From Cymodocea nodosa (lineage: Eukaryota; Streptophyta; Magnoliopsida; Alismatales; Cymodoceaceae), in the NCBI GenBank assembly GCA_036874045.1, contig CM072347.1:8744501-8808500 (forward strand): DNA of 64,000 bases, written 5' to 3'. The notes below the pieces were generated by a model that made no database searches, had not been told where the DNA came from, and saw only the letters and a program-made list of their open reading frames with translations. The translations under genes were made by a program, and so were the position numbers. Within the stretch, counting starts at the first letter, position 1, and every line of letters starts with the position of its first letter. This document shows positions 7,706 to 64,000 of the stretch, one piece after another.

Positions 7706-7750
7706 GAAAGTTCTTCAGTTTAACAGAATGGAAGACGATAGAAAACTCAG

Positions 7751-20968: not shown

Positions 20969-21978
20969 TATTAGGGCAAGTAGTACATATGTGGAGTATG
21001 GCACAAGAAGTTTAGATTCAATCGAAAGCTTGCTAACAGTAAGTATCTAGCAAATATATATTTTCAGTAGGTTATCAGACCTAAGTATCTGAAAATAAAG
21101 TTTCAATCGAAGGCTTTGAGCTAACTATCTAAAAGTTAGAAGATTTCGGAGGGTTACTAGCTATAACCATCCAAAATGACTTAAAGGATACTTAGTAGAT
21201 GTTTGGACAGTTAAGAAGCTAAGTATCCGAAAGTCAAATACTTAAGTGCATCTTCGGATAGTTAAGAAGCCAAGTATCCAAAAAGTAAAGACTTAAGTGG
21301 ATCTTCGGATAGTTAGGCAGTAACTATCAGAAAATCATAAGTTTTCGAAAGGTTAACAGTAGAACCTTCCGATATGACTGAAGAGACACTTAAGTGAGTT
21401 TTCGGATAGTTAAGATAGTAACTATCCGAAAGACATGTAGTTTTCAGAGAGTTAACGATAAAACCTTCCAAAATGACACAGAGAGATAAGTAAGTGGGAT
21501 TTCAGATAGTTAAGTTTGTAACTGTCTGAAATACCGAATCTCTCTAGATAATTAGCCTGCTACAGTACTATCCATTAGAAAGAAGAATTTCTTTAGATAG
21601 TTAAGTTTGTAACTATCCAAAATGTTACAGATTTTGGTAAGTTAGGAAGATAAGACTCCAAAATTGAGAGTCATTTCTCCGAAGCATTATTTCTCTATTG
21701 TAATAGCTTGTATGTAATTAAAGGTTTATAAACCCTAAGTTGGGTAGTATATAAACCTTTATGATGTTGTAAAACATTACGGTTGATTGTGCCGAAGCTC
21801 ATAGAAGAACCCTCAACTCTCCGTGGACGTAGGCTGTTGCTGAATCACGTAAATCCTATGTCTTCATTGTGTTATTTTTTCTTTTACTCTTCACTTCCAG
21901 TTTTGGTAAATTTAAAGGTGAGTGTTTCAGTATCATGCTATAGAAAGTTGACTGAATGATCTGTTCCAAAGTCTAACA
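20969..21978 (+). repeat. Copia 3' LTR
   Basis: It is the same length as 6681-7690 but clearly diverged, and its first dinucleotide is TA instead of TG. It contains a perfect 13-bp hairpin at 21400-21431 (arm TTTCGGATAGTTA, loop AGATAG). The TATA box copy is near 21747-21756. Confidence 0.92.
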
Positions 21979-34429: not shown

Positions 34430-34557
34430 TGTAGACACCCAAATCTCACCCCCCTTTTTAGGAACTATCTTTTTCACTATTGCAACCCCTGAGGTGTACA
34501 CTATCATTGCGCTTATGCAATTGTGCACCTTTGTCATCTAGAGTAGTGCTAGATGGC

Positions 34558-36414
34558 TGTTTAGAATGAAAAAGTGCATATTATTAACGTTTAAATGATG
34601 GTTAATTGCATAATATTTAGCTTATCATATGAGAATTAAGCCATTATGTTATAATTGCACTGTTATATGCTTTAATTGAAGAATCTGCTTAATTTTGGGG
34701 AATTAATGTTAATTTAGTACATTTATGAACTGTCGGTAAATTGCAGGCTGTGAAATTCTTAAGTATCCGAAAATGCATTTGAGCATTGGATAGTTATACC
34801 TGTAACTCTCTGAAATGTTATTTTATGTTTAAACTGCTGTTGACACGTGTCGAGATCTGGTAGACTTACTTAAGTTATAACTCGTTAAGTTAGCATAACT
34901 GTACGCGTTGAGTTGCTATATTGAATACTAAGGCAACGCGTTAGGTTAGCGTTATAAACTTAAGTTGTTATTTTTGCACGTGTTTTATAGTTAAATCAAT
35001 GAAGAAAGTCCGTTGAGTTATCTGTAACTCCACAGACTATATATTTTCTAATATGCCACTATAGCGGTTGCAGGAACAGATAGTTGGAAGGAAAAACCAC
35101 ATTCGCACGTATCACGTAGGAATTCAATCGCATAGGGAGAAAGAAATCATCGTTGTTGATCTGAAGGAAGGAAATCCAACCGACCATTCAAGCAGAAGTA
35201 GTTACTACTGAAGAAATATAAAAGAAAAGAAGAAAAAAAGAAGTGTGTGTGATCGATGGACGACCAATGTATACAGAGGAGGAGCACCGAGCTTTCTGCA
35301 GAAAGTATCGACGATTCTCCGAAGTATCACACCAACCATCGTATCACCACCATAATCACCAATCATCGGAGGTCTGTGAGGATACTTGCCTGATGTTGGG
35401 TCGATTCTGAGCCAAACACAGTGCTTGACAACCACTGTGAGGAGTGATCGTGTCGCGGGAAGGGAAGCCATTTTCACCAAGTGCCGACTCATATTTCAGG
35501 AGATCGTAAAACTTTTAACCTTGGCTTCGGGTTGATGCCAGTATGCTGAAGAAGAGATCATCTTGCAATTCTAGACTCGCGATTCTATAGGGATAGGAGA
35601 CAAAATTGTAAGTGGTTTAATTTTCAGTGGTGTAATCGCGTTGCAAGTAGTGTTAGAAGTATTTACTATCAAGTGAGATTACTTTACATTTCACCTTTCG
35701 CCCATTACATCAAAAAACAAAAAAAACAAAAACAATTTATCTTTGTTTGTATGTTGTATTTGAGTGTTGTATTGTTTGTGTTGTATCGTGATTAATGTTA
35801 TCTATATCAGTTTTATGATTGTTTTATGTTAGTTTTAATTTTACAGTTTACTTAAATTGGTTCGTACAAAAAACTTAAAGATTTTAATGGTGACTGTTTG
35901 AATCATCTGAATGCTAGTATTGCTTAATGATAAATCCAATGTTAACTAGCATTAAAAAGCTTAATTGATGTTATTTACAATCTGTGGAATCGCCCAATGG
36001 TTGGCCGAATTCCTTTGTAAATAGCAGTATTATAAAGAAGAGACAGGCTCGTGGAGTTAACTTAAGTCCACGAGCATAGTTCGTTGAGTTAGCCATAACT
36101 CAACGAACTTAGTCCGTTGAGTTAACTATAACTCAACGGAGTGCTTATTGAATATAAATTTGAATTGTTCACAATTAAATATTTCTTAAATTCGTCAGCA
36201 ATTCCCTATGGGATCGACCTGTACTTGCATACTGATACAATAGACACTGTGCACTTGCAGTTAAAGTACAAATTGGAATTAATATCTAAATTGTATTAAA
36301 GGTTGTTTGTTTACTTCTAAAAGAAAGAATAGGTATAAAGATAAATTAACTAAGTAAAAAAATAGAAGTAACAAATCCAAGTTTTTCTAGTGTAGTGCTG
36401 GGAAAACCCAAACA
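34558..36414 (+). repeat. F-box element 5' LTR
   Basis: 1,857 bp, TGTTTAGAATG to CCCAAACA. It contains a palindromic G-box GACACGTGTC at 34842-34851, a near-perfect hairpin (35008-35037) touching a TATA-like TATATATT at 35038-35045, and two perfect 12-bp hairpins at 36080-36140. Confidence 0.93.
35038..35045 (+). promoter_or_regulatory. LTR TATA box
   Basis: TATATATT lies about 480 bp into the LTR. The same sequence is at 41313-41320 in the 3' LTR. Confidence 0.5.
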
Positions 36415-36421
36415 AGTTATA

Positions 36422-36479: not shown

Positions 36480-37740
36480 ACATTAAAAATATATATAGAA
36501 CATAAAAATAGTTGCGGTTCAACCAACTGGTTCCATCGGTATGACTGGAACATTAAAAAATAAAAAATAAAAAATTGTATAATAATTTTCTAAAAAAAAT
36601 TGGTTTTATCGAAACATAGTATCGGTTCAACCGAAAGAAAAATAAAAAAATAAAAAATATTAAGGTCTGATCGAAGCATAGTATCAGTTGAACCGAAAAA
36701 AAAAATTGTATATTAATTTTCAGAAAAAAATATTGGTTTTACCAAAACATAGTATTGGTTCAACCGAAAGAAAAATAAAAGTATAAAAAATATTTAGGTC
36801 TGACCGAAGCATAGTATTGGTTAAACCTGTAAAAAAATAGAAAAACTATTCTCTGTAATATTTTTATTATTATATTTGCTTGTACGGAGAGTCCGTTGAG
36901 TCTTGAGTTAGTCAACGAGCTTATTCCATTGAGTTAACTGTAACTCAACAGAGTACTGTAGCTAAGACCTAAAATTAGAAAACCTCCAGAAGGAAGTAGA
37001 TGAATATAGGCATAGAGATTAAATTGTATTGTTCATCTACTTGTGTAAAATTGTATGAAATTGTATGATGTACTTGTAATGTAATTGATTCATATTAATG
37101 AATATAATTTTTCAGATGCAATTTTCATACGTATTTGGATGTGAAATGAATGGAATTTATTGAATATTATGTAATTTGTGGAACTTTATGAATATGTAAT
37201 AGATTTACAATTTGCTGAATGACAAGATAACTGCTTAAAAATTTCTGCATGTTATAAGGTAAAATGTAAATTCTACATAACATAAAATGACCTACAAGTT
37301 AAATCTTTATATAATGTTCAGATTTAAATGTATTTTAATCAAAATGAGGCATTAATGACATAGATTTAACTTTATTACAGAGCAGAATGACAAACAAAGA
37401 AAAAAAAACAGAATAGAAAACTTACGAGAGTGAAACTTAGAAGTTGCCTAGTGTTAACTCAATGAAGTAAGTCTGTTGAGTTAAACGTAACTCCACGAGG
37501 TCAGTAATATAATATAAGGTCACTTCGTTGAGTTATCTGTAACTCAATGAAGTTAGTCTGTGGAGTTAGCAACAGTAACCGACTCTGTTCTGTTGAGTAA
37601 TCTGTAACTCAACGAGGTTAGTTCGTGGATTAAGCAGAACAGTTATTCTTTTAACCACAAACGAAACTTCGTCGGTTTAGCAGTTACCAAAATTTGAAAT
37701 TAGTAGTGGTACACGTACCCACATAAAAACAGGAACATCG
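36480..37740 (+). other. leader with palindromic tandem repeats
   Basis: Positions 36573-36845 hold two copies of a ~132-bp unit rich in CATAGTATCGGTTCAACCG, whose CGGTT-C-AACCG core is palindromic; the related element has one copy (about 57120-57260). Positions 36890-36960 and 37440-37640 hold GTTGAGTTA hairpins. The boundary at about 36973-36986 marks the deletion of the accessory ORF relative to the element at 54.6-57.0 kb. No gene was seen. Confidence 0.7.
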
Positions 37741-37943
37741 ATGCACGTTGCAAGACACGTTCTTGCAATGAGATTTATTCACTTTATGGATGCACAGTAT
37801 ATATATGAAACAGAATGTTATTTACGAGTTACCAGCACTTTTAAAAGAAAGGAGAAAGCGTTGGAGGAACTAGAAGGAGAAACAGCTGATTCAACTTTCA
37901 TCCGACAACAAATATTTATAGAATGGAAAGCTTTAGACTGAAT
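37741..37943 (+). CDS. small ORF upstream of and overlapping the F-box start
   Basis: The 66-codon ORF reads MHVARHVLAMRFIHFMDAQY at its start and has a KRKEKALEELEGE charged segment. The same frame is seen in the other element (ATG 53830 on the - strand), with mostly conservative changes but a different end caused by one base. Its stop overlaps the F-box ORF start by a few codons in another frame. It could be a real small protein, an upstream ORF that tunes F-box translation, or chance; no family was recognised. Confidence 0.35.
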
Positions 37944-39089
37944 CGACAAATGAAATTGATGCAATTACCGTTGGATGTACTAAGGGAAGTATTAAGTAAC
38001 TTGTCAGCTAAAGATCTGTGCAGGCTGTGTTGTGTATCAAAGGAAATTAAAGACTGTATTGAAGAAAAATATTTTTAGGGACTACAAGCTGCAAAAATGA
38101 CTAAGATTAGAGATGGATTCGTATGGAGGTCATTTAATCGTAGTTCAAATACCCATGAATATCTGGCTATGGAAGAAACTACTGGAATTCCACCCAATGC
38201 ATTAGAAGGAATGAGTCATATTATGGGGATAGATGAAGGATTAATCATATACAAGATGAGACCAAGGTATGCAAGTTTATCATTACCTGATATTTTGATA
38301 CAAAATCCTATAATAGGAGAAGAATGGAATATAGGAAGACCTAATATATTTGAAGCACCAACTGAAAATTGTGGGTCAGCTTTAATATTTTCTGATAAAA
38401 ATTCTGCAATTCCTGAAAAATTATATTATTGGAGACCTACAGGAAATTAGGGTGAAGATTTACGCTTAAGTGTGTATAATTTTCTGAACAGATCTTGGAA
38501 TGAAAACATTATGATATATCTAGGACAGAAATCATTAATTAACCAAACACATGTCATACTTGATGGATATATCTATTTAGTCACGGAGATATCAATAGCA
38601 TATAGATCTGATTTATACATAGTGAGCATAGATAGTTATGATGATTATATAGAAATTTTACCTGTACCGAGTGAAATAGCTAAACCACCATCTGCAGAAT
38701 TTAATGAAATTCAAATAGGAATGTGGTATAATGAAGAAGATGATCCTACTTCATGTTTGATAAGATGGTGGGATGAACTGATGAAATTTCAAATATGGAT
38801 TATGGAAGACATGAATGAATGGAAGTGGGAAGAGGAGTATATTGAAATAGATGTAGAAATAGAAACTGCTACATTACCCTGGAACCAAAAAGGATCCCTT
38901 TCTGCATTACATATCATTAATGGTAATACACTCGTATTTGGAATTTATAATATATTGCATGTTTACAAATTAAAAAGGAACAAGAACTGCATTAAAACAG
39001 AATTAATAGCAAGAAGAACTATGCCTAAAAAGTTTGCTTGGACTGATACATTTATTCCATTTGTTTCTACTTTTCAATCATGTTCTTAA
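37923..39089 (+). pseudogene. F-box protein gene carried by the LTR element, two stops
   Basis: The 389-codon frame starts MESFRLNRQ, then an F-box at residues about 14-50: LPLDVLREVLSNLSAKDLCR followed by LCCVSKEIKDCI. F-boxes bind SKP1 and make the protein the substrate receptor of an SCF ubiquitin ligase. The C-terminal 330 residues look like an F-box-associated beta-propeller-type region (WNENIMIYL, GYIYLVTEI, W-rich strands), family not certain. In-frame stops are at 38076-38078 (Gln in the other copy) and 38448-38450 (Trp in the other copy); otherwise the frame is open to TAA 39087. The position, between leader and polypurine tract, is where plant elements may carry env-like genes. The junction 37940/37941 coincides with intron ends in the other element. 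Confidence 0.85.
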
Positions 39090-40833: not shown

Positions 40834-42691
40834 TGTTTAAAATGAAAAGTGCATATTATTAATGGTTAAATGATGGTTAATTGCATAATATTTAGCTTAT
40901 CATATGAGAATTAAGCCATTATGTTATAATTACACTATTATATGCTTTAATTGAAGAATTTGCTTAATTTTGGGGAATTAATGTTAATTTAGTACATTTA
41001 TGAATTGTCGATAAATTGCAGGTTGTGAAATTCTTAAGTATCCGAAAATGCATCTGAGCATCGGAGAGTTATACCTGTAACTCTCCGAAATGTTATTTTA
41101 TGTTTAAACTACTGCTGACACGTGTCGAGATCTGGTAGATTTACTTAAGTTATAACTCGTTAAGTTAGCATAACTGTATGCGTTGAGTTGCTATATTGAA
41201 CACTAAGGCAACGCGTTAGGTTAGCGTTATAAACTTAAGTTGTTATTTTTGCACGTGTTTTATAGTTAAATCAACGAAGAAAGTCTGTTGAGTTATCTGT
41301 AACTCCACGGACTATATATTTTCTAATATGCCACTATAGCGGTTGCAGGAACAAACAGTTGGAAGGAAAAACCACGTTCGCATGTATCACGTAGGAATTC
41401 AATCGCGTAGGGAGAAAGAAATCATCGCCGTTGATCTGAAGGAAGGAAATCCAATCGACCATTCAAGCAGAAGCAATTACTACTGAAGAAATATAAAAGA
41501 AAAGAAGAAAAAAAGAAGAAGTGTGTGTGATCGATGGATGGCCAGTGTATACAAAGGAGGAGCACCGAGCTTTCTGCAGAAAGTATCAGCGATTCTCCGA
41601 AGTATCACACCAACCATCGTATCACCACCATAATCACCAATCATCGGAGGTCTGTGAGGATACTTGCCTGATGTTGGGTCGATTCCAAGCCAAACACAGT
41701 GCCTGACAACCATTGTGAGGAGTGATCGTGTCGCGGGAAGGGAAGCCATTTTCACCAAGTGCCGACTCATATTTCAGGAGATCGTAAAGCTTTTGGCCTT
41801 GGCTTCAGGTTGATGCCTGTATGTTGAAGAGGAGATCATCTTGCAATTCTGGACTCGCGATTCTATAGGGAGAGGAGACAGAATTGTAACTGGTTTAATT
41901 TTTAGTGGTGTAATCGTGTTGCAAGTAGTGTCGGAAGTATTTACTATCAAGTGAGATTACTTTACATTTCACCTTTCGCCCATTACATCAAAAAAAAAAA
42001 TACCAAAAACAATTTATCTTTGTTTGTATGTTGTATTTGAGTGTTGTATTGTTTGTGTTGTATAGTGATTAATGTTATCTGTATCAGTTTTATGATTGTT
42101 TTATGTTAGTTTTAATTTTACAGTTTACTAAAATTGGTTCGTACAAAAAACTTAAAGATTTTAATGGTGACTGTTTGAATCATCTGAATGTTAGTATTGC
42201 TTAATGATAAATCCAATGTTAACTAGCATTAAAAAGCTTAATTGATGTTATTTACAATCTGTGGAATCGCCCAACGATTGGCCGAATTCCTCTGTAAATA
42301 GCAGTATTATAAAGAAGAGACAGGCTCATGGAGTTAACTTAAGTCCACGAGGATAGTCCATTGAGTTAGCCATAACTCAACGAACTTAGTCCGTTGAGTT
42401 AACTATAACTCAACGGAGTGCTTATTGAATATAAATTTGAATTGTTCACAATCAAACATTTCTTAAATTCATCAGCAATTCCCTGTGGGATTGACTTGTA
42501 CTTGCACATTGATACAATAGACAATGTGCACTTGCAGTTAAAGTACAAATTGGAATTAATATCTAAATTGTATTAAATGTTGTTTGTTTACTTCTAAAAG
42601 AAAGAATAGGCATAAATATAAATTAACTAAGTAAAAAAATAGAAGTAAAAAATCCAAGTTTTTCTAGTGTAGTGCTGGGAAAACCCAAACA
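40834..42691 (+). repeat. F-box element 3' LTR
   Basis: 1,858 bp, TGTTTAAAATG to CCCAAACA, a few percent different from the 5' LTR by eye, so the insertion is not very recent. The hairpins, G-box (41117-41126) and TATA box are kept. The antisense ORF 41480-41770 recurs in all four LTR copies of the family and is probably not a gene. Confidence 0.93.
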
Positions 42692-43937
42692 ATGGCCTTG
42701 GCCTTGTTCGACTGTGCGACTACTACTAGTCCCCCAATGGAGTTTCTTCCATCTAACCTTATGATTTGGGCCTCCCTATTCCCTGATTGACTGATCCTTT
42801 GGTCGGATCGTCAATCATGGCTTCCGATTGTTTGAATTAGTCCTAGACAATCTAGGTCGTCCATTTGGCCCCTATCTTGTTTGGCACATCTTGAGATGTT
42901 GAATCAGTCGTCTGATCACATATTCATGATCAAAGCACATTGAATTGTATAGATACATTATTCGATTGATGTTGACACATGCTGATCGCCTGGTTCTGCA
43001 ACAGACGATTAAGGTCGTCCGTACAAGGTGTTTTGACTTTGAATCCATCTCCTTTGCCATCAAGTACTTTTGATCATCTAGATATGATCAATTCCCCTTG
43101 GGTCGACTGATCCTTCAATTGGATTGCCGATCACGCTTGTGATCTTCTCGGATTAACTCCAAGGGAATTCTAGCCCTTCATTTGGGTGAGGAATGAGAAT
43201 CTCACTTATCCGGCTAATGATCAAGAAATCTGATCATAGGATGAGGCTCATCTCCTCCCTGATTGACCAACCCTTCGATCGGATTGTCAATTGGGTCTCT
43301 GGATTGTCTGAGATCAACTTGGACAATCTAGGCCGTCTATTTGAGGATTCGACTTTTCAAGGCCATTTTGGCATTCTACAAGTCAAATTTGCCAAAACGG
43401 AGGCTGGATTCGGACTCAGCATGTCCAAATTACCTAGGAGGGACCATTTACCAAATTTGGCCACGTGGCACAGCTGCCACGTGTTTCCCTCTTGCGTTGC
43501 CACGTGGCAACCATCATCTCATCGACTCGTTGGTGTTGGATCCGCCTGGATCTGAATCTGGATATCTCCCTTAAAACCTCATAGGGATTCGTGCAAAACC
43601 ACGAATCCACTTTTCTCTCACTGTAAAACCGTGTCGTTAGTCGCCGCACGCCGTCGTCCAGCCACCTCGACCGCCGCTCGTCTCCGGCCATCCCGCGACT
43701 GTTCCTCTGCGTGCAGGTACCCACCCGAATCACTAGTTATGCATTTGCAAAGTTTCAAATTTCATTTTCCACCGAAAGCATGCTGCTTTTCATGGTTGAT
43801 GGTAAAAGCTTGCCGTCAAACATTTTTCCTACATAGGTTTTACGGGTTTTCAGCTTCGGTCCGACCTCCTCTAGTCGTGATTGAGGTGTGTTTGAGCTCA
43901 GGAGGTCGCGCCTCGACATGTATGACCTTCATCTGGG

Positions 43938-45670: not shown

Positions 45671-45863
45671 GAGTTTACCCAGATCCGGGTCTCCGTACCT
45701 GGATCCTATAATCAAATCCGGGCTCGGTGGATTAAACCTGAGTTACCGGTTAGACCAGTTAACCCAAGATTAATCCAAGGCTCCAACCCGGATTAACCGA
45801 TTATAGCTGGTTAATCCAAGTTGGGTGACCGGCTAGACCGATTAATGCAGCCTGTTGACGAGC

Positions 45864-46966: not shown

Positions 46967-49182
46967 TGTTTGGGTTTTCCCAGCACTACACTAGAAAAAC
47001 TTGAATTTGTTACTTCTGCTTTACTTAATTAATTTATCTTTATGCCTATTCTCTCTTTTAGAAGTAAACAAACAACCTTTAATACAATTTAGATATTAAT
47101 TCCAATTTGTACTTTAACTGCAAGTGCACAGTGTCTATTGTATCAGTGTGCAAGTACAAGTCGATCCCATAGGGAATTGTTGAAGAACTTGAGAACTATT
47201 CGTTTGTTACAAATCAAATTTATATATTCAATAAGCTCTCCATTGACTTACAGTTAACTCAATGGACTAAGTTCGTTGAGTTATGGCTAACTCAACGGAC
47301 TAACCTCGTGGACTTAAGTTAACTCCACGAGCTTGTCTCTTCTTTATAATATTGCTATTTACAAAGGAATTCGGCCAACCATTGGGCGATTCCACAGATT
47401 GTAAATAACATCAATTAAGCTCTTTAATGCTAGTTAACATTGGATTTATCATTAAGCAATACTAACATTCAGATGATTCAAACGGTAACCATTAAAATCT
47501 TTAAGTCTTTTGTACGAACCAATTTCAGTAAACTGTAAAATTAAAACTAACATAAAACAATCACAAAACTGATATAGATAACATTAATCACGATACAATA
47601 AAAACAATACAACACTCAAATACAACATACAAACAAAGATAAATTGTTTTTAGTATTTTTGTTTTGATGTGAACATGGAAATGGGCAAAAGGTGAAATGT
47701 AAAGTAATCTCACTTGACATTAAATACTTCCGACACTACTTGCAACACGATTACACCACTGAAAATTAAACCACTTACAATTTTGTCTCCTCTCCTTATA
47801 GAATCGTGAGTCCAAAATTGCAAAATGATCTCCTCTTTAGCATATAGGCATCAACCCGAAGCTAAGGCTAAAAGCTTTACGATCTCTTGAAATATGAGTC
47901 GATGCTTGGTGAAAATGGCTTCCCTTCCTGCAACGCGATCACTCCTCACAATGGTTGTCAGGCATTGTGTTTGGCTCGAAATCGACTTGACATCAGGCAA
48001 GTATCCTCACAGACCTCTGATGGTTGGTGATTATGGTGTAGTGATGGTGGTGATGATGGTTGGTGTGGTACTTCAGAGAATTGCGACGCTCATCCTCCTC
48101 TGCACACACTGTCCGTCCATCGATCACACATCGATCACCCCTCTTCTTTTTTTTCTTCTTTTCTTTTATATTTCTTCAGTAGTAACTGCTTCTGCTTGAA
48201 TGGTCGGTTGAATTTCCTTCATTCATATCAACGGCAATGCTTCCTTCTCCCTACGCGATTGAATTCCTACGTGATACATGCAAACGTGGTTTTTCCTTCC
48301 AACTATCTTATTTCAGCAACCACTACAATGGCATATTAGAAAATATATAGTCCGTGGAGTTACAGATAACTCAATGGACTTTCTTCATTGATTTAACTAT
48401 AAAACACGTGCATAAATTTAACTATCCGATGCTTAGGTGCATTTAGGATACTTATAAACTTAACTATCTAATGCTCAGATGCATTTTGGATAGTTACAGA
48501 TAACTCACCGATACATAACTTAAGTAAATCTACTAGATTTCGACACGTGTCAATAGTAGTTTTAATTATAAAATAACATTTCGGAGAGTTACAGGTTTAA
48601 CTATCCAATGCTCAGATGCATTTCGAATAGTTATAGCTAACTCACCGAAAATCCACTTAAGTCACTTTCCCAGAACATGACACGTGTCCTCAACTATTTT
48701 ATAAATAAAAAGAGATTTCAGAGAGTTACATGGATAACTATTCGATGCTCAGCTGCAATTTCGGATAGTTATAGATAACTCACCGAAAGTTCACTTAAGT
48801 CATTCATTATGGTTTCGACACATGTATTTCAGGAAATAATAAAATATTCTCTCAAAACATAACTATTCAACAATTTAAACATAACTATCCGATACATATT
48901 CGGTCTATTAAACATAACTGTCCGAATTTGTTCGGTATGTTAAACATAACTGTCCGAATTATGAGAAAATTCGGATACTTAAGAATTTCATATCCTGCAG
49001 CTTACCAACAGTTCATAAATGTACTAAATTAACATTAATTCCCCAAATTAAGCAGATTCTTCAATTAAAGCATATAATAGTGCAATTATAACATAATGGC
49101 TTAATTCTTATATGATAAGCTAAATATTATGCAATTAACCATCATTTAACCATTAATAATATGCACTTTTTCATTCTAAACA
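46967..49182 (-). repeat. large F-box element 3' LTR
   Basis: 2,216 bp, - strand TGTTTAGAATG (49182) to CCCAAACA (46967). It is about 360 bp longer than the LTRs of the small element, through extra units of the type TAACTATCCGATGCTCAG...TTTCGGATAGTTA between 48420 and 48960. Palindromic G-boxes GACACGTGTC lie at 48542-48551 and 48679-48688. Confidence 0.92.
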
Positions 49183-50935: not shown

Positions 50936-53649
50936 TTAAGAACATGATTGAAAAGTAGAAACAAATGGAATAAATGTATCAGTCTAAGCAAACTTTTTAG
51001 GCATAGTTCTTCTTGCTATTAATTCTGTTTTAATGCAGTTCTTGTTCCTTTTTAATTTGTAAACATGCAATATATTATAAATTCCAAATACGAGTGTATT
51101 ACCATTAATGATATGTAATGCAGAAAGGGATCCTTTTTGGCTCCAAGGTAATGTAGCAGTTTCTATTTCTACATCTATTTCAATATACTCCTCTTCCCAC
51201 TTCCACTCATTTATGTCTTCCATAATCCATATTTGAAATTTCATCAGTTCATCTCACCATCTTATCAGACATAAAGTAGGATCATCTTCTTCATTATACT
51301 ACATTCCTATTTGAATTTCATTAAATTCTGCAGATGGTGGTTTAGCTATTTCACTCGGTACAGGTAAAATTTCTATATATTCATCATAACTGTCTATGCT
51401 CACTATGTATAAATCAGATCCATATGCTAATGATATCTCTGTGACTAAATATATATATCCATCAAGTATGACATGTGTTTGGTTAATTAATGATTTCTAT
51501 CCTAGATATATTATAATGTTTTCATTCCAAGATCTGTTTAGAAAATTATACACACTTAAGCGTAAATCTTTACCCCAATTTCCTGTAGGTCTCCAATAAT
51601 ATAATTTTTCAGGAATTGCAGAATTTTTATCAGAAAATATTAAAGTTGACCCACAATTTACAGTTGATGCTTCAAATCTATTAGGTCTTCCTATATTCCA
51701 TTCTTCTCCTATTATAGGATTTCTTATCAAAATATCAGGTTATAATAAACTTGCATACCTTGGTCTCGTCTTGTATATGATTAATCCTTCATCTATCCCC
51801 ATAATATGATTTATTCCTTCTAATGCATTGGGTGGAATTCCAGTAGTTTCTTCCATATATTCATGTGTATTTGAACTATGATTAAATGACCTCCATATGA
51901 ATCCATCTCTAATCTTAGTCATTTTTGCAGCTTGTAGTCCTTGAAAATATTTTTCTTCAATACAGTCTTTAATTTCCTTTGATACACAACACAACCTGCA
52001 CAGATCTTTAGCTGACAAGTTACGTAGTACTTCCCTTAGTGCATCCAACGGTAATTGCATCAATTCCATTTGTCGATTCTGTATAACACAAACAAAAATT
52101 TAGCAGAGACAAAAATTAACACAACTACTGCACACCCTTGTGGAGTTAAGGCATAACTCAACAAACTAAGTTCATTGAGTTAGAAATTAACTCTACGACA
52201 CTATTAACTAAAAATAAAAAACATATATACATACAGATAGTTGCTTCAGATATGCTGCTTCATTCAGCTGCCCTCCCGGAAGAGGTATCAATTTCATTAA
52301 CCGTTCTATTGACAGGATTAGGTATAGCTTGTATTGGCAATCCTCCAGTAGGTCTAACTTCCATTGGTTCCTTCTGTCTAAGTGATATATTTCTATTCTG
52401 ATTTTGAATTGCAGTATTTCCAAATATAAATTCTAAACGATTGTTTACTTGTTGGATTATCTTTTCTAATTTCTCTATTCTAGCTCCTTGTTCAATTAAT
52501 ACTTCATAACTTATGTTCTTCTCATTTATATTTTCTCCTCCCTGGAAATTATTGTTTCTCCAAGATAAATTCAGGTGATTTCTCCAATTAGGATGATAAG
52601 AATTTCCCAAGTTATCTCTCTGGTTTCTAGCATAAATAATATCTAAGTCATTTATGTGTGCATTCTTTTCTGCTAACTTTTGATTTAATGATAACTCTTC
52701 TATTTTCTTTGTTAATTCATTTAATTTCACTTCAAGCATAGTACTTGAATATATTTCATGCATTCCTCTTGGCAATATTCTTTTATCTGCAATAACTTCA
52801 ACTAAATTTTCCCACTGTGTAGTTCTTTTTGCAAAATTTTCTAAATATGCCCATGCTTCTTCACTACATAATTTTAAAAATCCATTTTGACAAGTAGATT
52901 CTAATAAAGATTTCGTTGAAACATCTATGCCTTCATAAATTATACCTATTAATTGTGCTTTACTCATTGCATGATGTGGACATTGAGTCAATAAATCTTT
53001 AAATCTTTCAAAATATTTCTAGAATGATTCACCTTGTTTTTGGCTACACATTAATATTTCTCTCTTCTTTTTAATCGTTTGATGTGTTGGATAATATTTT
53101 TCTAGAAAAACAGAGCAAAATTCAGTCTATGTAGAAATTGAATTAGGCGACAAAGTATATAACCATCTCTTAGCTGTGTCTTTTAAAGAAAAAGAGATAT
53201 ATCTAAGTTTAATAGCATCTATACTCATGTTCGGCATTTTCATCATTTGACAAACTTCGTTAAATTCTCTAAGGAAGTAATAGGCATCCTCTCTTTCTAA
53301 TCGATGAAAATGTGGCAATTGACTAATATAATTAGATTTCAGTTCAAACCTATCTCCCTCAAAGTTTGGCAATTGAATACATGAAGGTTCATCATTTAAT
53401 TCAGGATATAGAATTTCTCCTAATGGTTTTTCTACTGGAGCAGCCATTTCTACGTTCTCTTTTAAAGAAAGGTTAGCAACACCCCAAAGAATTTCGTTAA
53501 AGTTCAGTTCAAACAATTTTCAGTACTCCTCTGCAATGAAAATTCCTGGGTAGGTGTTCTTACTAATTGTTTAGTGCTTAGAGAACGAGTCCATGTGCTC
53601 ATAAATAAATAATAGAAGATTAATTACATACTAGTCTGAAGCTTTCCAT
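50936..53649 (-). pseudogene. F-box protein gene, two exons with gag inside the intron
   Basis: Exon 1 contributes ATG 53649 to 53632 (six codons, MESFRL). The intron would run 53631-52079 (GTATGT donor, TTTGTGTTATACAG acceptor) and exon 2 is 52078-50936. The joined length of 387 codons equals the small element's 389 minus two codons at its EYLAMEE site. The F-box (LPLDALREVLRNLSAKDLC, then CCVSKEIKDCI) is intact. About six stops follow, most at former Trp or Gln codons (for example near 51732, 51496 and 51247). SCF-receptor role as for the other copy. Splicing is inferred from the sequence junction of the small element, not from RNA. Confidence 0.8.
52260..53447 (-). pseudogene. gag: Athila-like gag (capsid part), downstream of pol
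   Basis: 396 codons from ATG 53447, with the frame open further upstream to about 53516. The capsid region shows IQLPNFEGDRFELKSNYI, YYFLREFNEVCQM and LRYISFSLKDTAKRWLYTLS, the standard retrotransposon Gag pattern. Later come LNELTKKIEELSLNQKL, SYHPNWRNHLNLSWRNN and RPTGGLPIQAIPNP, as in Athila Gags. Two stops (about 53124 and 53020) replace expected Trp codons. It has no zinc knuckle of its own; a knuckle-like motif instead opens the pol ORF at 62 kb. It would form the virus-like particle. It lies wholly inside the predicted intron of the F-box gene. Confidence 0.85.
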
Positions 53650-53650
53650 T

Positions 53651-53830
53651 CTATAAATATTTGTTGTCGGATGAAGTTGAATCAGCTGCTTCTCCTTCCA
53701 GGTCCTCCAACGCCTTCTCCTTTCTTTTAAAAGTGCTGGTAACTCGTAAATAATATTCTGTTTCATATATATACTGCGCATCCATAAAGTGAATAAATCT
53801 CGTTGCAAGAATGTAGCTTGCAACGTGCAT
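53651..53830 (-). CDS. small ORF before the F-box splice donor
   Basis: 60 codons from ATG 53830, homologous to the ORF at 37741-37943 (RFIHFMDAQYIYETE, then KRKEKALEDLEGE). One base fewer in the tail changes the C-terminus. In the next frame an open stretch from 53823 would run across the predicted splice into the F-box frame, giving a longer N-terminus. Function unknown. Confidence 0.3.
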   Translation of the reverse strand: MHVASYILATRFIHFMDAQYIYETEYYLRVTSTFKRKEKALEDLEGEAADSTSSDNKYL

Positions 53831-54552
53831 TGTGGTTCCTATTTTTATGGGTACGTGTACCACTACTAATTTCAAATTTTGGTAACCACTAAACCGACGA
53901 AGTTTCGTTCATGGTTAGAAGAATAACCGTTCTACTTAATCCACGAACTAACCTCGTTAAGTTACAGAAAACTCAACAAAATACAGTCGGTTACTGTTGC
54001 TAACTCCACGGACTAACTTCGTTGAGTTACAAATAACTCAACGGAGTGACCTTATATTATATTACTAACCTCGTGGAGTTACGGTTAACTCAACAGACTT
54101 ATTTCGTTGAGTTAACACTTCGCAACTTCTAAGTTTTACTCTCGTAAGTTCCTCTCTGTTCTTTTTTGTTTCTTTTTCATTCTGCTAACTGTAATAAAGT
54201 TAAATCTATATCATTAATGCATCATTTTGATTAAAAGTCATTTAAATCTAAATCTTTTATAGAGATTTAACTTGTAGGTCATTTTATGTTATGCAGAATT
54301 TACATTTTACCTTATAACATGCAGAAATTTTTAAGTAGTTATCCTGTCATCTAGTAAATTGTAAATCTATTACATATTCATTCATAAAGTTCCACAATAA
54401 CATAATATTCAATATATTCCATTCATTTCACATCCAAAACATGTATGAAAATTGCATCTGAAAAATTTACATTCATTAATATGAATCAATTACAATACAA
54501 GTACATCATACAATTTCATACAACTTTACATAAGTAGACGAATCAATACAAT

Positions 54553-56796
54553 TTAATCTCTATGCCTAAGTTCATCTACTTCCTTCTGGAGTTTTTCTAA
54601 TTGCTGCTCTAATTGATTTAACCTTTCTACTGCTCCCGAAATTCCTCTAGAAGGTACAGCTAGTTCTGCAGCTACAAAATTCCTGTATTCTTTCACTGAA
54701 ATGGTTCTAGATCTGATCCTTTTTGATGTCCATTTCGTGAAATCAATACAGTCCACTATCAGCAGTGGAATCAAATCTCCATAAAATAATTTCTTCTTCA
54801 CTGTTTTCAGCTTAGAGATAAAAACTGCAAACCAATTTATTTGGATCTTATTTACAACTGCATACGTGACCCATTTGACAAATTGACTTAATTCTATGTC
54901 ATGGCCTTATCGTTTATAGACATTCTTAATCAGAATGTTAGCTACCATGTGTGCTTTACCATTTAACTACTTCAATCTGTTTAATAATGGCACACCAGGA
55001 TTGATAGCTAAACAATCCTTAATTTGCTGCTCAGTCCATTCAACTGCAGTTGTATCTTCCAAAATTATTGTTCCTTCATTCTTTAAACCAAAAATGTTGT
55101 GGAGAAGCTCTAGTGTTATCTGTACATCAGCTTCCTCCACATTTGAAATTAATCCTCCTTCTCCTTCTCTCAAATTAGCATAAAAACAGGGTACTAAATT
55201 TTCATATATTGCATGCCCTCTTTCTTGAGATATAAATTGCAGTAGACATTGGAATTCAAATAGATCTTTGATTTCTTGCATTCCATCCCAGTTTATTGGT
55301 CTACAATAAATAATATCATAACCCCTTATTTCCTGGTATTTGGTATAAGCTTCCTGACTACAAAAATGTACTTCATTCAAAATTGTTGTTTCAGTTGGGT
55401 CAGGAAGGTGACTTTGTTGCTCCTAAGGGGTTTGTACTTGATTTTCCTCTAGCATAGGCTGCATTTGAACATTCTCTTCAAATTCCTGAATTTTTGCTTT
55501 TGCTTTTGTCTATGGTGGTGAGTCGGCAGAACTCTCCACTCTGTCTTGAATTCTTTCCATAATTTGCTGAAGAGTTTCTTGCTCTTCAGTGGAATCTGTG
55601 AAATTATTTTTGTCCAAATGGCTTCTTTCAGCCTCTTCATTTTCTTCTCTTTCTTCTTCCTCTTGACTACCAATCTGTTCTGTTACTATTCTTTCTAATT
55701 TTGTAACAGATTGGGATGGAGTCATAGGCAATTCAGTTTCTACCCTAATTTCTGTTTCTTCTTGTACAGGCTGTAGACTAATTTCAACCTGATTTTCTTC
55801 TTGTCTTTGCTCCTACTGCTGCAGCTCCTGCTCCTCCTCAGAATCGGATAGCAGGTTAATAAAAATCTACTCCACAGGCCCTGTAAAAATTGGTACTTCA
55901 GATTTAATTTCTTCATATTCAGACACTTTTTCTTTTCCTTTCTTTTTTCTGATTAGTTGTGCCTGTTCTTCCTCTTCATCTTCTGAAATTAAATCTACAA
56001 AAATAGGCTCTGCAAGCCTTCGAGCCATAGGTACTAGCTCTTCCTGTTTAACTTTTCCTATAATTACTGGTCTTGAAGGACTAGCTTCATCTCCTTTTGC
56101 AGCAGGTTTGGCAACAGTTCTAGTAGTGGCTTCATGATGCTGTTCCACTTTAATTTTATATTGGGCTTTCAACTTTTCTACAGCCCTCTTTTTATACAAT
56201 GCATCAAACACCAAGTGTGCTTTAGCCACTGCCAAATCTTCTGATTCTCCTTGGTTTTTTCCAACTTGAACCAGTTCTGCAAATTCTCTTATTTCTTCTT
56301 CAGTCGAAGGCCCCATCATTTCTGCTCGTGCCAACGGCTTAAATGGTGGAACTGAAGGTCCAGGTTGCTGCTCCTCAAGAGTAGGTCTTTCAGTAGTTGG
56401 TTCCTCTCGTTCTTCAGTTGCCTCTTCTTCATTTTCTTTCCTTTCTTGCTCCCAGATCGCCCATTGAGCTCGTCTACAGATTTGTCTTTTGAACCAGAGC
56501 CGGGACTTACGTTGGATTAATTCTAGGGCAACTTCATTACTTGGCCTTATTTGTCTTTCCTTGCTTACAGCTATTTCTGTTGCTATTCTAATTCGTGTTT
56601 CCATTATTTGAGGTATTTGTATACCCAAATTTACTAAATCTCTTCTGAAATTGAAAAGTTTCGATTCTACCTTTTGTAGCTCTTTCTCTCTTGTCGTATT
56701 TCTGATCTTCTACCGCGTGTGCCACTCTTCTGATTCCTTCAGAAATTCTGATGTATCAACAGCCTCTTCCAAGAATTTAGGCGTCATCTTCCTCAT
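54553..56796 (-). pseudogene. accessory ORF with plant transposon-protein domain and coiled coils
   Basis: One frame of 748 codons from ATG 56796 (MRKMTPKFLEE), with about seven stops and no frameshift. The N-terminal half is highly charged, Glu/Lys-rich and repetitive (EEREEPTTERPTLEEQQ; VDLISEDEEEEQ). The middle part (55380-54967: CSQEAYTKYQEIRGYDIIYC, then INWDGMQEIKDLFEFQ) is the domain found downstream of pol in several plant retroelements, role unknown. The C-terminus is a leucine-rich coiled coil (VERLNQLEQQLEKLQKEVDE). It is the relative of the decayed frame at 1458-3720. The small F-box element has lost it by deletion. Confidence 0.8.
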
Positions 56797-57380: not shown

Positions 57381-60300
57381 CTAAATAAAGCTCGAGTAGT
57401 CCTTTACTCTAACTTCCTCTATAATTCCAAAGGAGCTTTTTGGTGTTTTCAGAATAGGTTTCAGTCTTTGTCCATTTACTTTAAATATATTCTGATTTTT
57501 AGGATTTTCAATTTCAATAGCTCCATAAGGATAAACATTTCGAACAATGTAAGGTCATGCCCATCTAGATCTTAATTTTCCTGGATGGTTATGGAGTCTA
57601 GCCATATAAAGATATACTTCTTGTCCTATTTCAAAGCTTTTTGGAATAATTTTTCTATCATGCCAGAATTTAATTTTCTCTTATTCTCTTACAGTACTCG
57701 AATAAGCTTCATTTCTAAATTCTTCTAATTCAATTAGTTGCATTTTCCTATTTTCAACAGCTTGATTTAAATTAGTGTTCAGAGTTTTTAATGCCCAATA
57801 AGCTTTATGTTCTATTTCAGCAGGTAAATGACAACTTTTTCCATATACTAGCTTGAAAGGTGACATACCTAAGCTCGTTTTATAAGCAGTTCTATAAGCC
57901 CAAAGTGCATCTATCAATCTATTAGCCCAATCTGTTCTAGTAGGATTTACTATTTCCAAGAATAATTTAATTTGTTTGTTTGCACTTTCTACTTGTCCAC
58001 TTGTTTGTGGATGATATGATATTGCAATTTTGTGGTTTACTCCATATTTCTTCATTAAGGCTTCAAAACTTCTATTACAGAAATGAGTTCCTCTATCACT
58101 GATAATAGCTTTAGGTATTTCAAATCTGGCAAATATATTTGTTCTTATAAATTGTATTACCACTTTGTTATGATTAGTTTTTGTAGGAATAGCTTCTATC
58201 CATTTAGATACATAATCCACCCCCAACAATATGTAATTAAATTGATTAGACATAGGAAATGGACCCATAAAATCTATTCCCCATACATCAAAGATTTCAA
58301 CCTCAACAATAGGATTAAGAGGCATCATATTCCTCTTTGATATTCTTCCTATTTGTTGACATCTTAAACAACATAAGCAATATTTATGAGCATCTTTGAA
58401 TAGTGTTAGCCAATAAAACCCACATTGCAGAATTTTTGTAGCAGTTTTCCCTGAACCAAAATGTCCTCCACAAGTTTGGTCATGACAAAAAGAAAATATG
58501 CTTGAATATTTAGTTTCTAGAACACACCTCCTTAAAACCAGATCAGGACATTTCTTAAATAAGTATGGGTCTTCCCAATAGTAATATTTTACTCTTGAGA
58601 AAAATAATTTCTTATCCTATCTATTCCAATCCTTAGGTGTTAAACCAGTAACTAAGTAATTAACTATGTCTGCATACCAAGGCATTGTGTTGATGGTCAT
58701 TAATTGTTCATCAGAAAAATTATCCTTAATTTCAATATTTGATTTTTCTATTTGTAATCTTGATAAATGATCTGCTACTACATTCTCACAACCTTTTTTA
58801 TCTTTAATTTCTAGATCAAATTCTTGTAATAATAATATCCATCAGATCAATCTAGGTTTAGTTTCTTTTTTCTTTATTAGATGCTTTAGAGCTGAATGAT
58901 CCGTGTATACTATTACTTTAGCTCCAATCAGATATGATCTAAACTTTTCTAAAGCAAACACAACAGCTAATAATTCTTTTTTAGTAGTTGTGTAATTAAC
59001 TTGAGCATCATTTAAGGTTTTGCTTGTATAATGAATTACTCTAGGAGATTTTTCTATCTTCTGTCCTAACATTGCTCCTACAGCAAAATCAGAAGCATCG
59101 CACATTAATTCAAATGGATGGTTTCAATCAGGTGCTTGAATTATAGGAGTTGAAATTAAGCTAGTCTTAAGTCTGAAAAATGCTTCCTTGCAATTTTTAT
59201 CAAAGTTAAATGGAACATCTTTTAATAGATTAGTTAAAGGTCTAGCTATCTTGCTAAAGTCTTTAATAAATCTTCTATAAAAACCAGCATGTCCTAGAAA
59301 TGATCTAATATCTTTTATTGATTTAGGTTCTGGTAGATTAGATATTACTTCTATTTTAGCTTTACCTACTTCCAACCCTTTTTTAGAAACAACATGCCCT
59401 AAGACTATTCCTTGTTTAACTATGAAGTGACATTTTTCCCAATTTAAAACCAGATTTTTTTCCACACAACGTTTTAATATTTGGTCTAAATTGCTTAAAC
59501 ATACTTCATATGAGTTGCCATATACAGTAAAATCATCCATAAATATTTCTAAAAAATCTTCAGTCATTCCAGTAAATATGCCCTGCACACACCTTTGAAA
59601 TGTAGCTAGCGCATTGCATGATCCGAATGACATTCTCTTTAAAGCATATGTTCCATTAGGACAGGTGAAAGTTATTTTCTCTTGATCCTCTAATGCTACT
59701 GGAATTGATTATACCCTGAATACCCGTCTAGGAAACAAAAATATTCTTGGCTTGGTAATCTTTCCAGCATTTGATCTATAAAAGGTAAGGGAAAATGATC
59801 TTTCCTAGTCACAACATTCAGCTTTCTATAGTCTATACATACTCTCCAGCCTAATTGAATTCTAGTAGGTATCAAGTCTTGACTTTCATTCCTAATAACT
59901 GTTAATCCTGATTTCTTGGGAACTACATGGATTGGACTAACCCACGAGCTATCAGAAATCGGATAAATTATATCATTATCTAACCATTTAACTATTTCTT
60001 TCCTGACTACTTCTTTAAGGTTTGGATTCAATATCCTCTCAGGAATTCTAACAGGTTTAGCATTCTCTTCTAAATATATGTGGTGACAACATAAAGTTGA
60101 ATTTAACCCTTTTATATCAATCATAGTCCATCCTATTGCTTCTTTATAACTTTTTATTACATCTTTTAATTTAGCTATTTGATCCTCTTTTAAATCTGAA
60201 GCAATAATGATTGGACAAGTTCGTTTATCTTCCAGAAATATATAGGTTAATTCAGGAGGTAAAAGTTTTAATTCTAAATGGTTCCCATCAGAAGCTAGAG

Positions 60301-62023
60301 CTCCTAACTAAACATCATCATTTTTTAAATTAATTTTTTCCATATCTCCTTCTATATTTATGCTTTCATTTTCCTCTAAAGTTTCAAAATTGATTTTCCT
60401 ATTTAATTCTTCTTGAATCACATCATCTAACATATCTCCTTCATCCTCTAAAAAGTCTATGGTATGTAAGGACATTTCTAACTCCTCAAACCTTTCTGGT
60501 TTGAAAATATTTAATTGAGTATCCTCATTACCATATGCTAACTTCATTACTCCAGTTTTACAATTTATAATAGCCCCTGATGTTGCTAAAAATGGCCTTC
60601 CCAAAATTAAAGATGTATCACTATTTTTATGCTTAATTTGTTGGGAATCCAAAATTACAATATCAATAGGATATATAAAATTCTTGATTTTAATTAAGAC
60701 ATCCTCTATTTTTTCTCTTAGGTATCTTATACTTCTATCAGCTAATTAAATAACCGTACTAGTAGGAGTTAAGCCTTCTAATCCTAAGGATGCAAATATA
60801 TCACTTGGCATAACATTTATACCTGCACCTAAGTCTATTAAGGTTCTTTCTAGAATGGTATTTCCTATGGTGCATGATATAACAGAGATTCTAGGATCAG
60901 ATAACTTTTTAGGAATTTGTGGCAGAAATAGGGAACTACTTTGCTCAGCTAAAAAGACATTTCTAAGAACTTTTCGCTCTCTTTTCTTAGTACACCAATC
61001 CTTTAGAAATTTAGCACAAGGTGGCATATTCTGCAATAGATCTAACAAAGGAATGTTAACTTGTACTTTTTCAAAAATTTCTTTGATTTTCTCTTGTCTT
61101 TCAGGAATTGTTTGTTGTAATATTTCAGGATAGGGTGCTAAAGATTTTGATTTCAAAGACTCTTTTTCTTTTAGTTGATTTGTTTGATCATTTTTAGCTT
61201 CATTCGCAGATTCAGATTGTTCTTTAGTGATTTCTAGATTTTCAGCTATTACATTTTCATTATCATTTTGATTTTTAGTCTTGTCCACCTTCATATGATT
61301 TTCATTTTGAGTTCTTGGTGGTATATCAGTTCCAGATCTTAATGTTACACATACATCTTCTAGATTTTCGTTACTTTCATGATGTTTTTGTATATCATTT
61401 TCGTGATTATGATCTTCAATTGTTTTTAGTTTTAAAGTGCATTCTTTAAATTCTCTTGCATTAGTATTTTCTATTTGCTGTATATTTTGCAAATTATGCA
61501 GGTTTATAACATTATAATTTTCATTGTCTTGTAGCATAACTTGTATTTTCATTGCATTTTTGTCTAATGCTCTTAATTTTGTTTCCAGATCATCTAATTT
61601 CATTGCATTCAATTTTTGATCAATTTTCTTTATGGTTTTTTCAATTTCGTAAATTATATCCTGTTTAGGTTTTGAATATGCTTCCTTATAGTTTAATTGG
61701 TTGACTTCTTGGTGTTGACACATAAAGTATTCCTGTTTGTCCAAATTTTGCTCTATACTATGCTCTAGTCTGTCATAGCTATCCCAAACTTCAGTGCCTC
61801 TCATCATATTACACATTCTATACTCACCATCAGTTGGGTAAACTATAGGATTCTCATACTCGACTCTATTATATTGAGGATAATTCATTTGTTGTTCATG
61901 GGATCTAACCATCTGTAAACGCCTCAATTTCAAAAAATCAGAATTGTCATGTCCTTCAGAATTACAGAATTCACATATGCTAATAATAGGTTTCAGAAAT
62001 CTTTGAGCATAAGCATATGCCAT
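57381..62023 (-). pseudogene. pol: Athila-like pol with N-terminal zinc-knuckle-like motif, decayed
   Basis: It starts at ATG 62023, 86 bp after the PBS (MAYAYAQRFLKPIIS). A CEFCNSEGHDNSDF knuckle follows whose last Cys is Phe. Then come a long charged linker, LRSGTDIPP, protease (LIDLGAGINVMP near 60820), RT (WRVCIDYRKLN near 59845; FMDDF near 59540), RNase H ([10 protein letters not shown] at 59105; [10 protein letters not shown]), the integrase finger ([10 protein letters not shown] to CCLRCQQ) and core ([10 protein letters not shown] 58290; [18 protein letters not shown]) and the C-terminal [17 protein letters not shown]. Breaks: stops near 60747, 60309, 59124, 58842 and others, and a one-base deletion near 59706. 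No capsid domain precedes it. It is the same class as 10837-15105. Confidence 0.9.
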
Positions 62024-62108
62024 ATTCTCAATTATAGAAGAAAACACACAACTCTGACTATTAAAATGAAACAGCTCTAACAGTTGCTTATATTAATTCA
62101 ATTCAATT

Positions 62109-62135: not shown

Positions 62136-64000
62136 TGTTTGTGTTTTCCCAACACTACACTAGAAAAACTTGGATTTGTTACTTCTATTTTTACTTAGTT
62201 AATTTATCTTTATGCCTATTCTTTCTTTTAGAAGTAAACAAACAACCTTTAATACAATTTAGATATTAATTCCAATTTGTACTTTAACTGCAAGTGCATA
62301 GTGTCTATTGTATCAGTGTGCAAGTACAGGTCAATCCCACAAGGAATTGCTGAAGAACTTGAGAAACTGTTCGTTTGTTAACAATCAAATTTATATATTC
62401 AATAAGCTCTCCGTTGACTTACAGTTAACTCAACGAACTTTAGTCCGTTGAGTTATGGCTAACTCAACAGACTAACCTCGTGGACTTAAGTTAACTCCAC
62501 GAGCCTGTCTCTTCTTTATAATATTGCTATTTACAGAGGAATTTAACCAACCATTGGGCGATTCCATAGATTGTAAATAACATCAATTAAGCCCTTTAAT
62601 GCTAGTTAACATTGGATTTATCATTAAACAATACTAACATTCAGATGATTCAAACAGTAACCATTAAAATCTTTAAGTCTTTTGTACGAACCAATTTCAG
62701 TAAATTGTAAAATTAAAACTAACATAAAACAATCACAAAACTGATACAGATAACATTAATCACGATACAACACAAATAATACAACACTCAAATACAATAT
62801 ACAAACAAAGATAAATAGTTTTTGGTATTTTTGTTTTGATGTGAACATGGAAATGGGCGAAAGGTGAAATGTAAAGTAATCTCACTTGACAGTAAATACT
62901 TCTAACACTACTTGCAACGCGATTACACCACTGAAAATTAAACCACTTACAATTCTGTCTCCTCTCCCTATAGAATCGTGAGTCCAGAATTGCAAGATGA
63001 TCTCCTCTTCAGCATACAAGTATCAACCCGAAGACAAGGCTAAAAGTTTTACGATCTCTTGAAATATGAGTCGACGCTTGGTGAAAATAGCTTTCCTTCC
63101 CGCGACGCGATCACTCCTCACAGTGGTTGTTAGGCACTGTGTTTGGCTTGGAATCGACCCGACATCAGGCAAGTATCCTCACAAACCTCTGATGGTTGGT
63201 GATTATGGTGTGGTGATGGTGGTGATGATGGTTGGTGTGGTACTTCAGATAATTGCGACGCTCATCCTCCTCTGCACGCACTGTCCGTCCATCGATCACC
63301 CCTTTTCTTTTTTTTCTTCTTTTCTTTTATATTTCTTTAGTAGTAACTACTTTTGCTTGAATGGTCGGTTGGATTTCCTTCATTCATATCAACAGCGATG
63401 CTTCCTTCTCCCTACGTGATTGAATTCCTGCGTGATACGTGCAAACGTGGTTTTTCCTTCCAACTGTCTTGTTTCCACAACCGCTATAGTGGCATATTAG
63501 AAAATATATAGTCCATGGAGTTATAAATAACTCAACAGACTTTCTTCGTTGATTTAACTATAAAACACGTGCATAAATTTAACTATCCGATGCTCAGGTG
63601 CATTTCGAATACTTATAAACTTAACTATCCGATGCTCAGATGCATTTCGGATAGTTACAGATAACTCACCGATACATAACTTAAGTAAATCTACCAGATC
63701 TCGACATGTGTCAGCAGCAGTTTTAATTATAAAATAACATTTTGGAGAGTTACAGGTTTAACTATCCGATGCTCAGATGCATTTCGGATAGTTATAGCTA
63801 ACTCACCGAAAATCCACTTAAGTTACTTTCGCAGAACATGACACGTGTCCTCAGCTATTTTATAAATAAAAAGAGATTTCGGAGAGTTACAGGGATAACT
63901 ATCCGATGCCCAGCTGCAATTTCAGATAGTTATAGATAACTCATCGAAAGTTCACTTAAGTCATTCATTATGGTTTCGACACATGTACTTAAGGAAATAA
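62136..64000 (-). repeat. large F-box element 5' LTR (incomplete)
   Basis: 1,865 bp of an LTR expected to be about 2.2 kb, cut by the window end. It is collinear with 46967-48830 and repeats its hairpins and G-boxes. The ORF 63066-63419 is the LTR-borne frame seen in every copy, not a convincing gene. Confidence 0.9.

Follow-up and report, generated by a model that had tools for sequence, protein, structure and literature searches.

The stretch of DNA analysed here (hereafter the window; 64,000 nucleotides, C21:8744501-8808500 of a 374.6 Mb host assembly in 28 contigs) carries two related LTR retrotransposons, a small and a large one, whose features are collected in Table 1; aligned over 3,905 bases, they share 94.9% identity. 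The small element has LTRs that are 95.3% identical to each other, and its F-box open reading frame (ORF) shows, besides the F-box domain, a match to F_box_assoc_1 that stays under its Pfam cut-off (E=1.1e-5). The large element, on the minus strand, runs from past the window end down to 46967 in the order LTR, PBS, an ORF with zinc-knuckle gag and protease, RT, RNase H, integrase and ORF X, followed by the leader, the capsid gag, the F-box ORF, the PPT and the LTR.

Table 1. Features of the small and the large element, with positions counted along the window
Feature	Position	Strand	Basis or remark
Small element, target-site duplication ATGGC, left	34553..34557	+	matches 42692-42696
Small element, 5' LTR	34558..36414	+	direct repeat with 40834-42691; ends read
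Small element, 4-base filler at non-splice deletion junction	36969..36972	+	56963-54603 of large element absent
Small element, exon 1 coding part (MESFRL)	37923..37940	+	reading of sequence
Small element, splice junction in DNA	between 37940 and 37941	+	junction pattern at 183 genome places
Small element, F-box ORF, exon 2	37941..39089	+	F-box E=1.4e-10; two internal stops
Small element, 3' LTR	40834..42691	+	direct repeat with 34558-36414
Small element, target-site duplication ATGGC, right	42692..42696	+	5 bp, same as left
Large element, 3' LTR	46967..49182	-	repeat comparison, ends read
Large element, F-box ORF, exon 2	50936..52078	-	F-box E=8.3e-11; several stops
Large element, T-rich tract and acceptor TACAG	52079..52098	-	comparison with other copies
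Large element, intron, 1,553 bp	52079..53631	-	alignments with small element and other copies
Large element, capsid gag ORF, within intron	52260..53602	-	Retrotrans_gag E=2.3e-18 on 52263-53519
Large element, splice donor GTATGT	53626..53631	-	comparison with other copies
Large element, exon 1 coding part (MESFRL)	53632..53649	-	reading of sequence
Large element, leader	53632..54602	-	TATATATAT at 53773-53765
Large element, ORF X region	54556..56709	-	interrupted
Large element, reverse transcriptase, RNase H, integrase	57684..60307	-	Pfam RVT_1, RT_RNaseH, rve; interrupted
Large element, 5' ORF region (gag zinc-knuckle and protease, no capsid)	60311..62092	-	interrupted ORF
Large element, 5' LTR	62136..64000	-	92.9% to 3' LTR; extends beyond window

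Several further repeats lie in the window. The LTRs of the two elements form a mosaic, in which the first 213 bp (34558-34771 against 49182-48970) are 95% alike and the remainder (34970-36417 against 48417-46964) about 89%, perhaps through template switching. Between the elements, a G+C-rich stretch (43945-45672) contains two copies that are 84-87% alike and stands out from its AT-rich surroundings. Furthermore, a 1.55 kb inverted repeat of 99.2% identity (7749-9297 and 16971-15423) sits between direct repeats (6683-7690 and 20971-21978, 90%), as would be left by a young element nested with older ones.

The large element shares with Ty3/gypsy elements its LTRs, the PBS and PPT (both read by eye) and the RT-RH-INT order within pol. 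Its 5' ORF region holds a zinc knuckle, read by eye, and a weak match to Asp_protease_2 (E=0.022, under cut-off); its capsid gag ORF is interrupted in the window copy, with a start (53602) read by eye; and no Pfam family reaches its cut-off in the ORF X region (718 codons), which is a module present or absent among family copies. A PBS complementary to tRNA-Asp is a trait of the Athila clade, and the PBS of the large element may be of the Athila type; its gag, too, is one that we take to be Athila-like. The usual Ty3/gypsy order, as summarised in PMC6317226, places GAG first and PROT-RT-RH-INT after it, and this order is not found in the window element, where the capsid gag lies 3' of the integrase. 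The split and reordered gag-pol (capsid at 52260-53602, the other parts at 57684-62092) recurs in L032 and the adjoining L003, the former running from LTR through ORF X to leader in the window's order and the latter holding gag and F-box. Among the five upstream stretches fetched, L032, L033 (without integrase) and L034 (without RT) have pol segments ahead of the leader, while L035 (LTR and leader) and L031 (leader, with parts of the 3' tail in inverted orientation) show no pol. One intron-containing copy (L023) has a short inverted leader piece between the integrase region and gag. The window family thus has a rearranged Athila-like Ty3/gypsy order, with the capsid gag downstream of pol.

An earlier sequence-only reading of this DNA had proposed that the collinearity of the small element with the large one breaks off after 53632 and resumes at 52078; the alignment confirms this join, with 1,553 bp (53631-52079) skipped. 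Its description of the skipped DNA as a plant-like intron likewise holds, since the segment begins GTATGT and ends TACAG, and its GT-AG ends are conserved in other copies: among 30 first-round intron-containing copies GT is intact in 29 and AG in 29, and in a second set the donor is present in 20/20 and AG in 16/17. This second set derives from an L023 query that returned 40 places with a similar 5' flank and intron start (L023 and L007 included), for 20 of which both flanks were fetched; the acceptor region was present in 17, and the other 3 were dropped from the two-flank analyses. The T content reaches 44% in the last 180 intron bases, the intron as a whole being only slightly richer than its flanks (31% vs 29%). 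Taken literally, the alignment of the two window copies contains one mismatch, at the last base of exon 1 (A at 53632, G at 37940), and from these copies alone the gap would be placed as AG..CA. However, 23 of the 30 intron-containing copies have G at this base, like the small element, and 7 have A; a parent of the G type would give the join by GT-AG excision without any base change, and the mismatch does not break the GT-AG rule. Two other statements of the sequence-only reading stand in part: the capsid gag does lie wholly inside the skipped DNA, which was said to hold the whole gag ORF, but the zinc-knuckle/protease part is in the 5' ORF; and in the small element of the window the ATG of MESFRL does share the reading frame of the F-box ORF, but the fusion is not conserved in the sister family described below.

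The small element is also without the stretches from about 62.09k to 57344 and from 56963 to 54603 of the large element, which the sequence-only reading had passed over. Neither deletion qualifies as an intron: at the 56963/54603 junction four filler bases are inserted and the donor side lacks GT, and the 5' deletion near 57343 shows no GT-AG. The filler junction is common to two of the 30 intron-containing copies (L007 and L009), which keep gag and intron and are without ORF X at the same junction as the small element; the 5' join near 57343, read in L035 (upstream of L007) only, agrees with that of the small element bar a short repeat. Since these junctions occur in intron-containing copies (the filler junction in L007 and L009, the 5' join in L035 upstream of L007), structural differences within that sub-lineage come down mainly to the intron. 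The view of the small element as a mobilised spliced RNA is supported but needs refining: the exact excision stands, but the large element of the window cannot simply have supplied the spliced RNA that became the small one. Upstream stretches of 13 intron-less copies were examined for their backgrounds, which comprise ORF X in four (L038, L045, L073, L071), the integrase together with the filler junction in four (L050, L064, L044, L069), the filler junction with no pol match in L036, and the integrase with part of ORF X in L063, the stretches of L056, L068 and L041 having no clear background.

Two of the three intron-less elements checked (the window element and L036) are LTR-bounded insertions with a 5-bp target-site duplication, and L044 has no matching duplication among the flanks checked. 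An origin of the small element as a LINE-type processed copy is ruled out by its LTRs and target-site duplication. A complete LTR element with such a duplication points to a template that was an LTR-started RNA with PBS and PPT, spliced and yet reverse-transcribable.

Across the host assembly the spliced-junction pattern (at most one mismatch) occurs at 183 places, 100 of which were listed individually, and its reversed control at none. For the donor pattern the count is 3,087 places, which may include relatives and were counted at an unmatched stringency, so that the ratio to 183 is a rough guide only. A join-spanning query gave 40 matches, the window's own included, each in one piece, and the expectation that intron-less copies all break at the same bases was borne out in 40/40 (39 fetched copies and the window element), within a sample picked by a junction-spanning query that could miss other deletion types. 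The last base of exon 1 is G in 38 of the 39 fetched copies and A in L044, and the exon 1 ATG is retained in 39/40, the window element counted. As all copies were chosen by similarity to set queries, both the frequencies and the lack of other junctions are subject to bias. The observation itself is confirmed, with more in its favour than the sequence-only reading had claimed.

A sister family has the corresponding join as well. Its spliced-form pattern (at most three mismatches) occurs at 26 places (control 0), and the corresponding join was found in all 10 of those that were read. These intron-less copies are 86-95% identical to each other and 72-83% (5' flank) and 83-87% (3' flank) identical to the window family, with a 5' flank nearer to the diverged relative in L035. 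The sister copies read have no exon-1 ATG and a different frame, and consequently an F-box ORF there would start in exon 2; the MESFRL fusion is thus a trait of the window's family.

The diverged relative in L035 (leader about 70-80% and gag about 81-88% identical to the window family) has donor, gag, acceptor and F-box ORF start all in place, its F-box being truncated. With donor, gag and acceptor present in so diverged a relative, the best reading is that the intron with its gag is old and the intron-less form derived; the opposite polarity, which the sequence-only reading had raised against itself, was not borne out. A later insertion of gag into an ancestral intron-less form has in our view a very low probability, no point in its support having been found: the donor, gag and acceptor occupy the same places in the diverged relative, and copies with and without the intron are intermingled on the tree described below, so that repeated identical insertions would be needed. 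Deletion at the DNA level without splicing, followed by amplification, finds a parallel in other deletions of the family (e.g. the 56963/54603 junction with its filler), but we judge it highly improbable here, as the missing segment is bounded precisely by GT and AG within a donor and an acceptor of plant type, the join is ambiguous by only 1 bp and so offers no repeat to guide recurrent deletion, and the corresponding join exists in two families.

How often the spliced form arose was approached with 87 rows (30 first-round and 17 second-set intron-containing copies and 40 intron-less ones), whose tree implies 18 changes of intron state (bootstrap 18-20), at least 4 being forced by the starred branches; 42 of its 84 inner branches are open. 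The intron label is also clustered on this tree (shuffled mean 28.9 changes, 0/500 as low). A single clade for the 40 intron-less rows is rejected (AU p=0.0116), and one for 38 rows gives p=0.0269, for a group named after seeing a tree. Four gametes are present in 495 of the 589 site pairs across the intron, a pattern that probably stems in part from C-to-T decay. Of two pairs chosen for their tight linkage, 5:222/3:40 (about 95 bp upstream and about 40 bp downstream of the intron) is the second tightest of the 589, with 85/87 rows parental, and both its haplotypes occur in both states (AT in 42 copies with and 29 without the intron, GA in 4 with and 10 without); in the tightest, 5:272/3:273, -A is found in 27 copies with and 3 without the intron and CG in 19 with and 34 without. 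A single splicing and reverse-transcription event, whose intron-less product was then amplified and reached other backgrounds of the family by recombining with relatives that keep the intron, would suit the subfamily alleles common to most of the 40 intron-less copies. Modules are shuffled among family copies, which shows recombination, four-gamete patterns are common generally, and template-switching recombination seems active in the family and could carry the intron-less state between backgrounds. Such a transfer would, however, need two crossovers close to the intron in order to keep both flanks, single-crossover products for 5:222/3:40 number only 2/87, one clade is rejected and the sister family has intron-less copies of its own; we regard a single event as unlikely. 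The intron-less state might also have arisen before the two families parted, but both states would then have had to persist in each of them. Taken together, these comparisons suggest that spliced RNA was most likely mobilised repeatedly, and the recurrence of its reinsertion appears well supported, although not proven.

We consider it very probable, on the strength of these sequence comparisons, that an Athila-like family carries gag in the intron of an F-box unit, and that its spliced RNA was repeatedly reverse transcribed and integrated in at least two related families. The F-box gene at the end of the unit was probably captured from a host. An RNA that retains the intron would yield Gag and could also serve as the genome, whereas in an intron-free RNA the F-box ORF would come first; Gag from unspliced and F-box protein from spliced RNA would fit the layout. 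As the spliced RNA would keep its LTR ends, PBS and PPT, it could be reverse transcribed and integrated, with the capsid, and for pol-less copies also the enzymes, presumably supplied in trans. Many repeats of this process in at least two families would account for satellites devoid of gag, the small element of the window among them. The splicing of the RNA, the alternative products Gag and F-box protein, the supply in trans and the internal promoter considered below are all inferred from the DNA. More tentatively, and with considerable doubt on our part, the mobilisation of spliced RNA might be built into the life cycle, one intron toggling between Gag genome and F-box messenger and the satellites benefiting the family. 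By analogy with P0, a viral F-box suppressor, an F-box protein delivered by satellites could perhaps act as a ubiquitin-ligase adaptor against a host silencing factor.

The coding potential of the unit was assessed from its domains and substitution patterns. The F-box domain exceeds the Pfam cut-off (41.0 and 41.8 bits vs 20.5), and no relatives of the F-box protein were found at E<=0.001 among 1,735 candidates scored with a query of limited sensitivity (X at stops). Gag relatives were sought in viral contigs, where 12 stretches fit a pattern and none was confirmed, and plasmid records gave no match. Selection on the F-box frame is suggestive at best: its net omega between families is 0.44 over about 95 codons (against 0.52 and 1.74 for the controls read out of frame), its internal N/S is 1.86 vs 3.45 for singletons (p=0.03) with controls that do not separate (p=0.002 and 0.31), and the F-box ORFs of the small and the large element are compatible with neutral change (P=0.28). 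In gag, changes shared by several copies have an N/S of 1.03 vs 4.74 for singletons (p=4e-6, against p=0.03 and 0.15 for the controls read out of frame), and these fewer amino-acid changes among shared variants would be in line with selection on active copies. Moreover, TATATATA lies in AT-rich DNA 125 bases before the exon-1 ATG of the window's small element and is found in the leader piece of 89/90 copies, which makes a putative internal promoter for the gag/F-box unit in the leader plausible.

Retroelements are expected to exclude spliced RNA from their particles, and here the junction stands at 183 places, apparently through repeated events. By counting such places in DNA one can gauge how frequently spliced RNA has been copied in nature, and they imply that the window element needs no packaging signal in the gag region. 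Furthermore, a capsid gene behind pol and inside an intron would be an unusual way to make Gag apart from Pol. In literature searches for F-box-bearing retrotransposons, for gag after pol and for families of spliced LTR-retrotransposon copies, which covered few subscription papers, no paper among the matches listed describes such a system in its title or abstract opening.

The spliced expression that we infer for the gene near the 3' LTR is like that of Bagy-2, an element with gag in the usual place and with an env-like gene where the window family has the F-box gene. Bagy-2 is assigned to the Athila clade (PMC6317226), and its env-like gene near the 3' LTR is expressed by splicing (Vicient et al. 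2001, cited in PMC3735527 and PMC7264820); the accessible portions of these accounts mention no mobilised spliced form, unlike the situation in the window family. Ogre, another plant Ty3/gypsy element, is described as having a partially spliced intron between parts of one polyprotein, whereas the window intron holds the capsid gene. In the plant LTR retrotransposon BARE1, facultative splicing of a 104-nt intron yields a spliced Gag RNA and separates the translation products; its authors argued that such RNA must stay out of particles and is unpackaged, and reported that DNA copies of it are not amplifiable from barley DNA (PMC3735527); the window family is the opposite, its spliced form being present as DNA copies. 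Non-autonomous Athila elements of Arabidopsis are mostly without pol, spread with help and recombine between families (PMC2410132), but keep gag, and in its accessible text that report mentions neither intron-less forms nor an F-box gene. For Diaspora, of the Athila lineage, packaging of spliced subgenomic RNA was proposed in 2005 as a one-step gene deletion (PMC1142308). That proposal was a conjecture on the loss of env, whereas the window family offers an observed exact excision, of gag and on many backgrounds, a documented case in which splicing removed a structural gene in a single step. A further likeness is to the SD'-associated retroelement (SDARE) of MLV, a defective element that arises when a spliced subgenomic RNA enters particles and, once reverse transcribed, is integrated (PMC2925334): here, too, copies that are without exactly a parental GT-AG intron stand alongside the parent. 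SDARE, as described there, belongs to a vertebrate retrovirus and joins a donor inside gag to the canonical acceptor, whereas in the plant element of the window the capsid gene is itself the intron of the F-box unit, and the junction is found at 183 places in one assembly.
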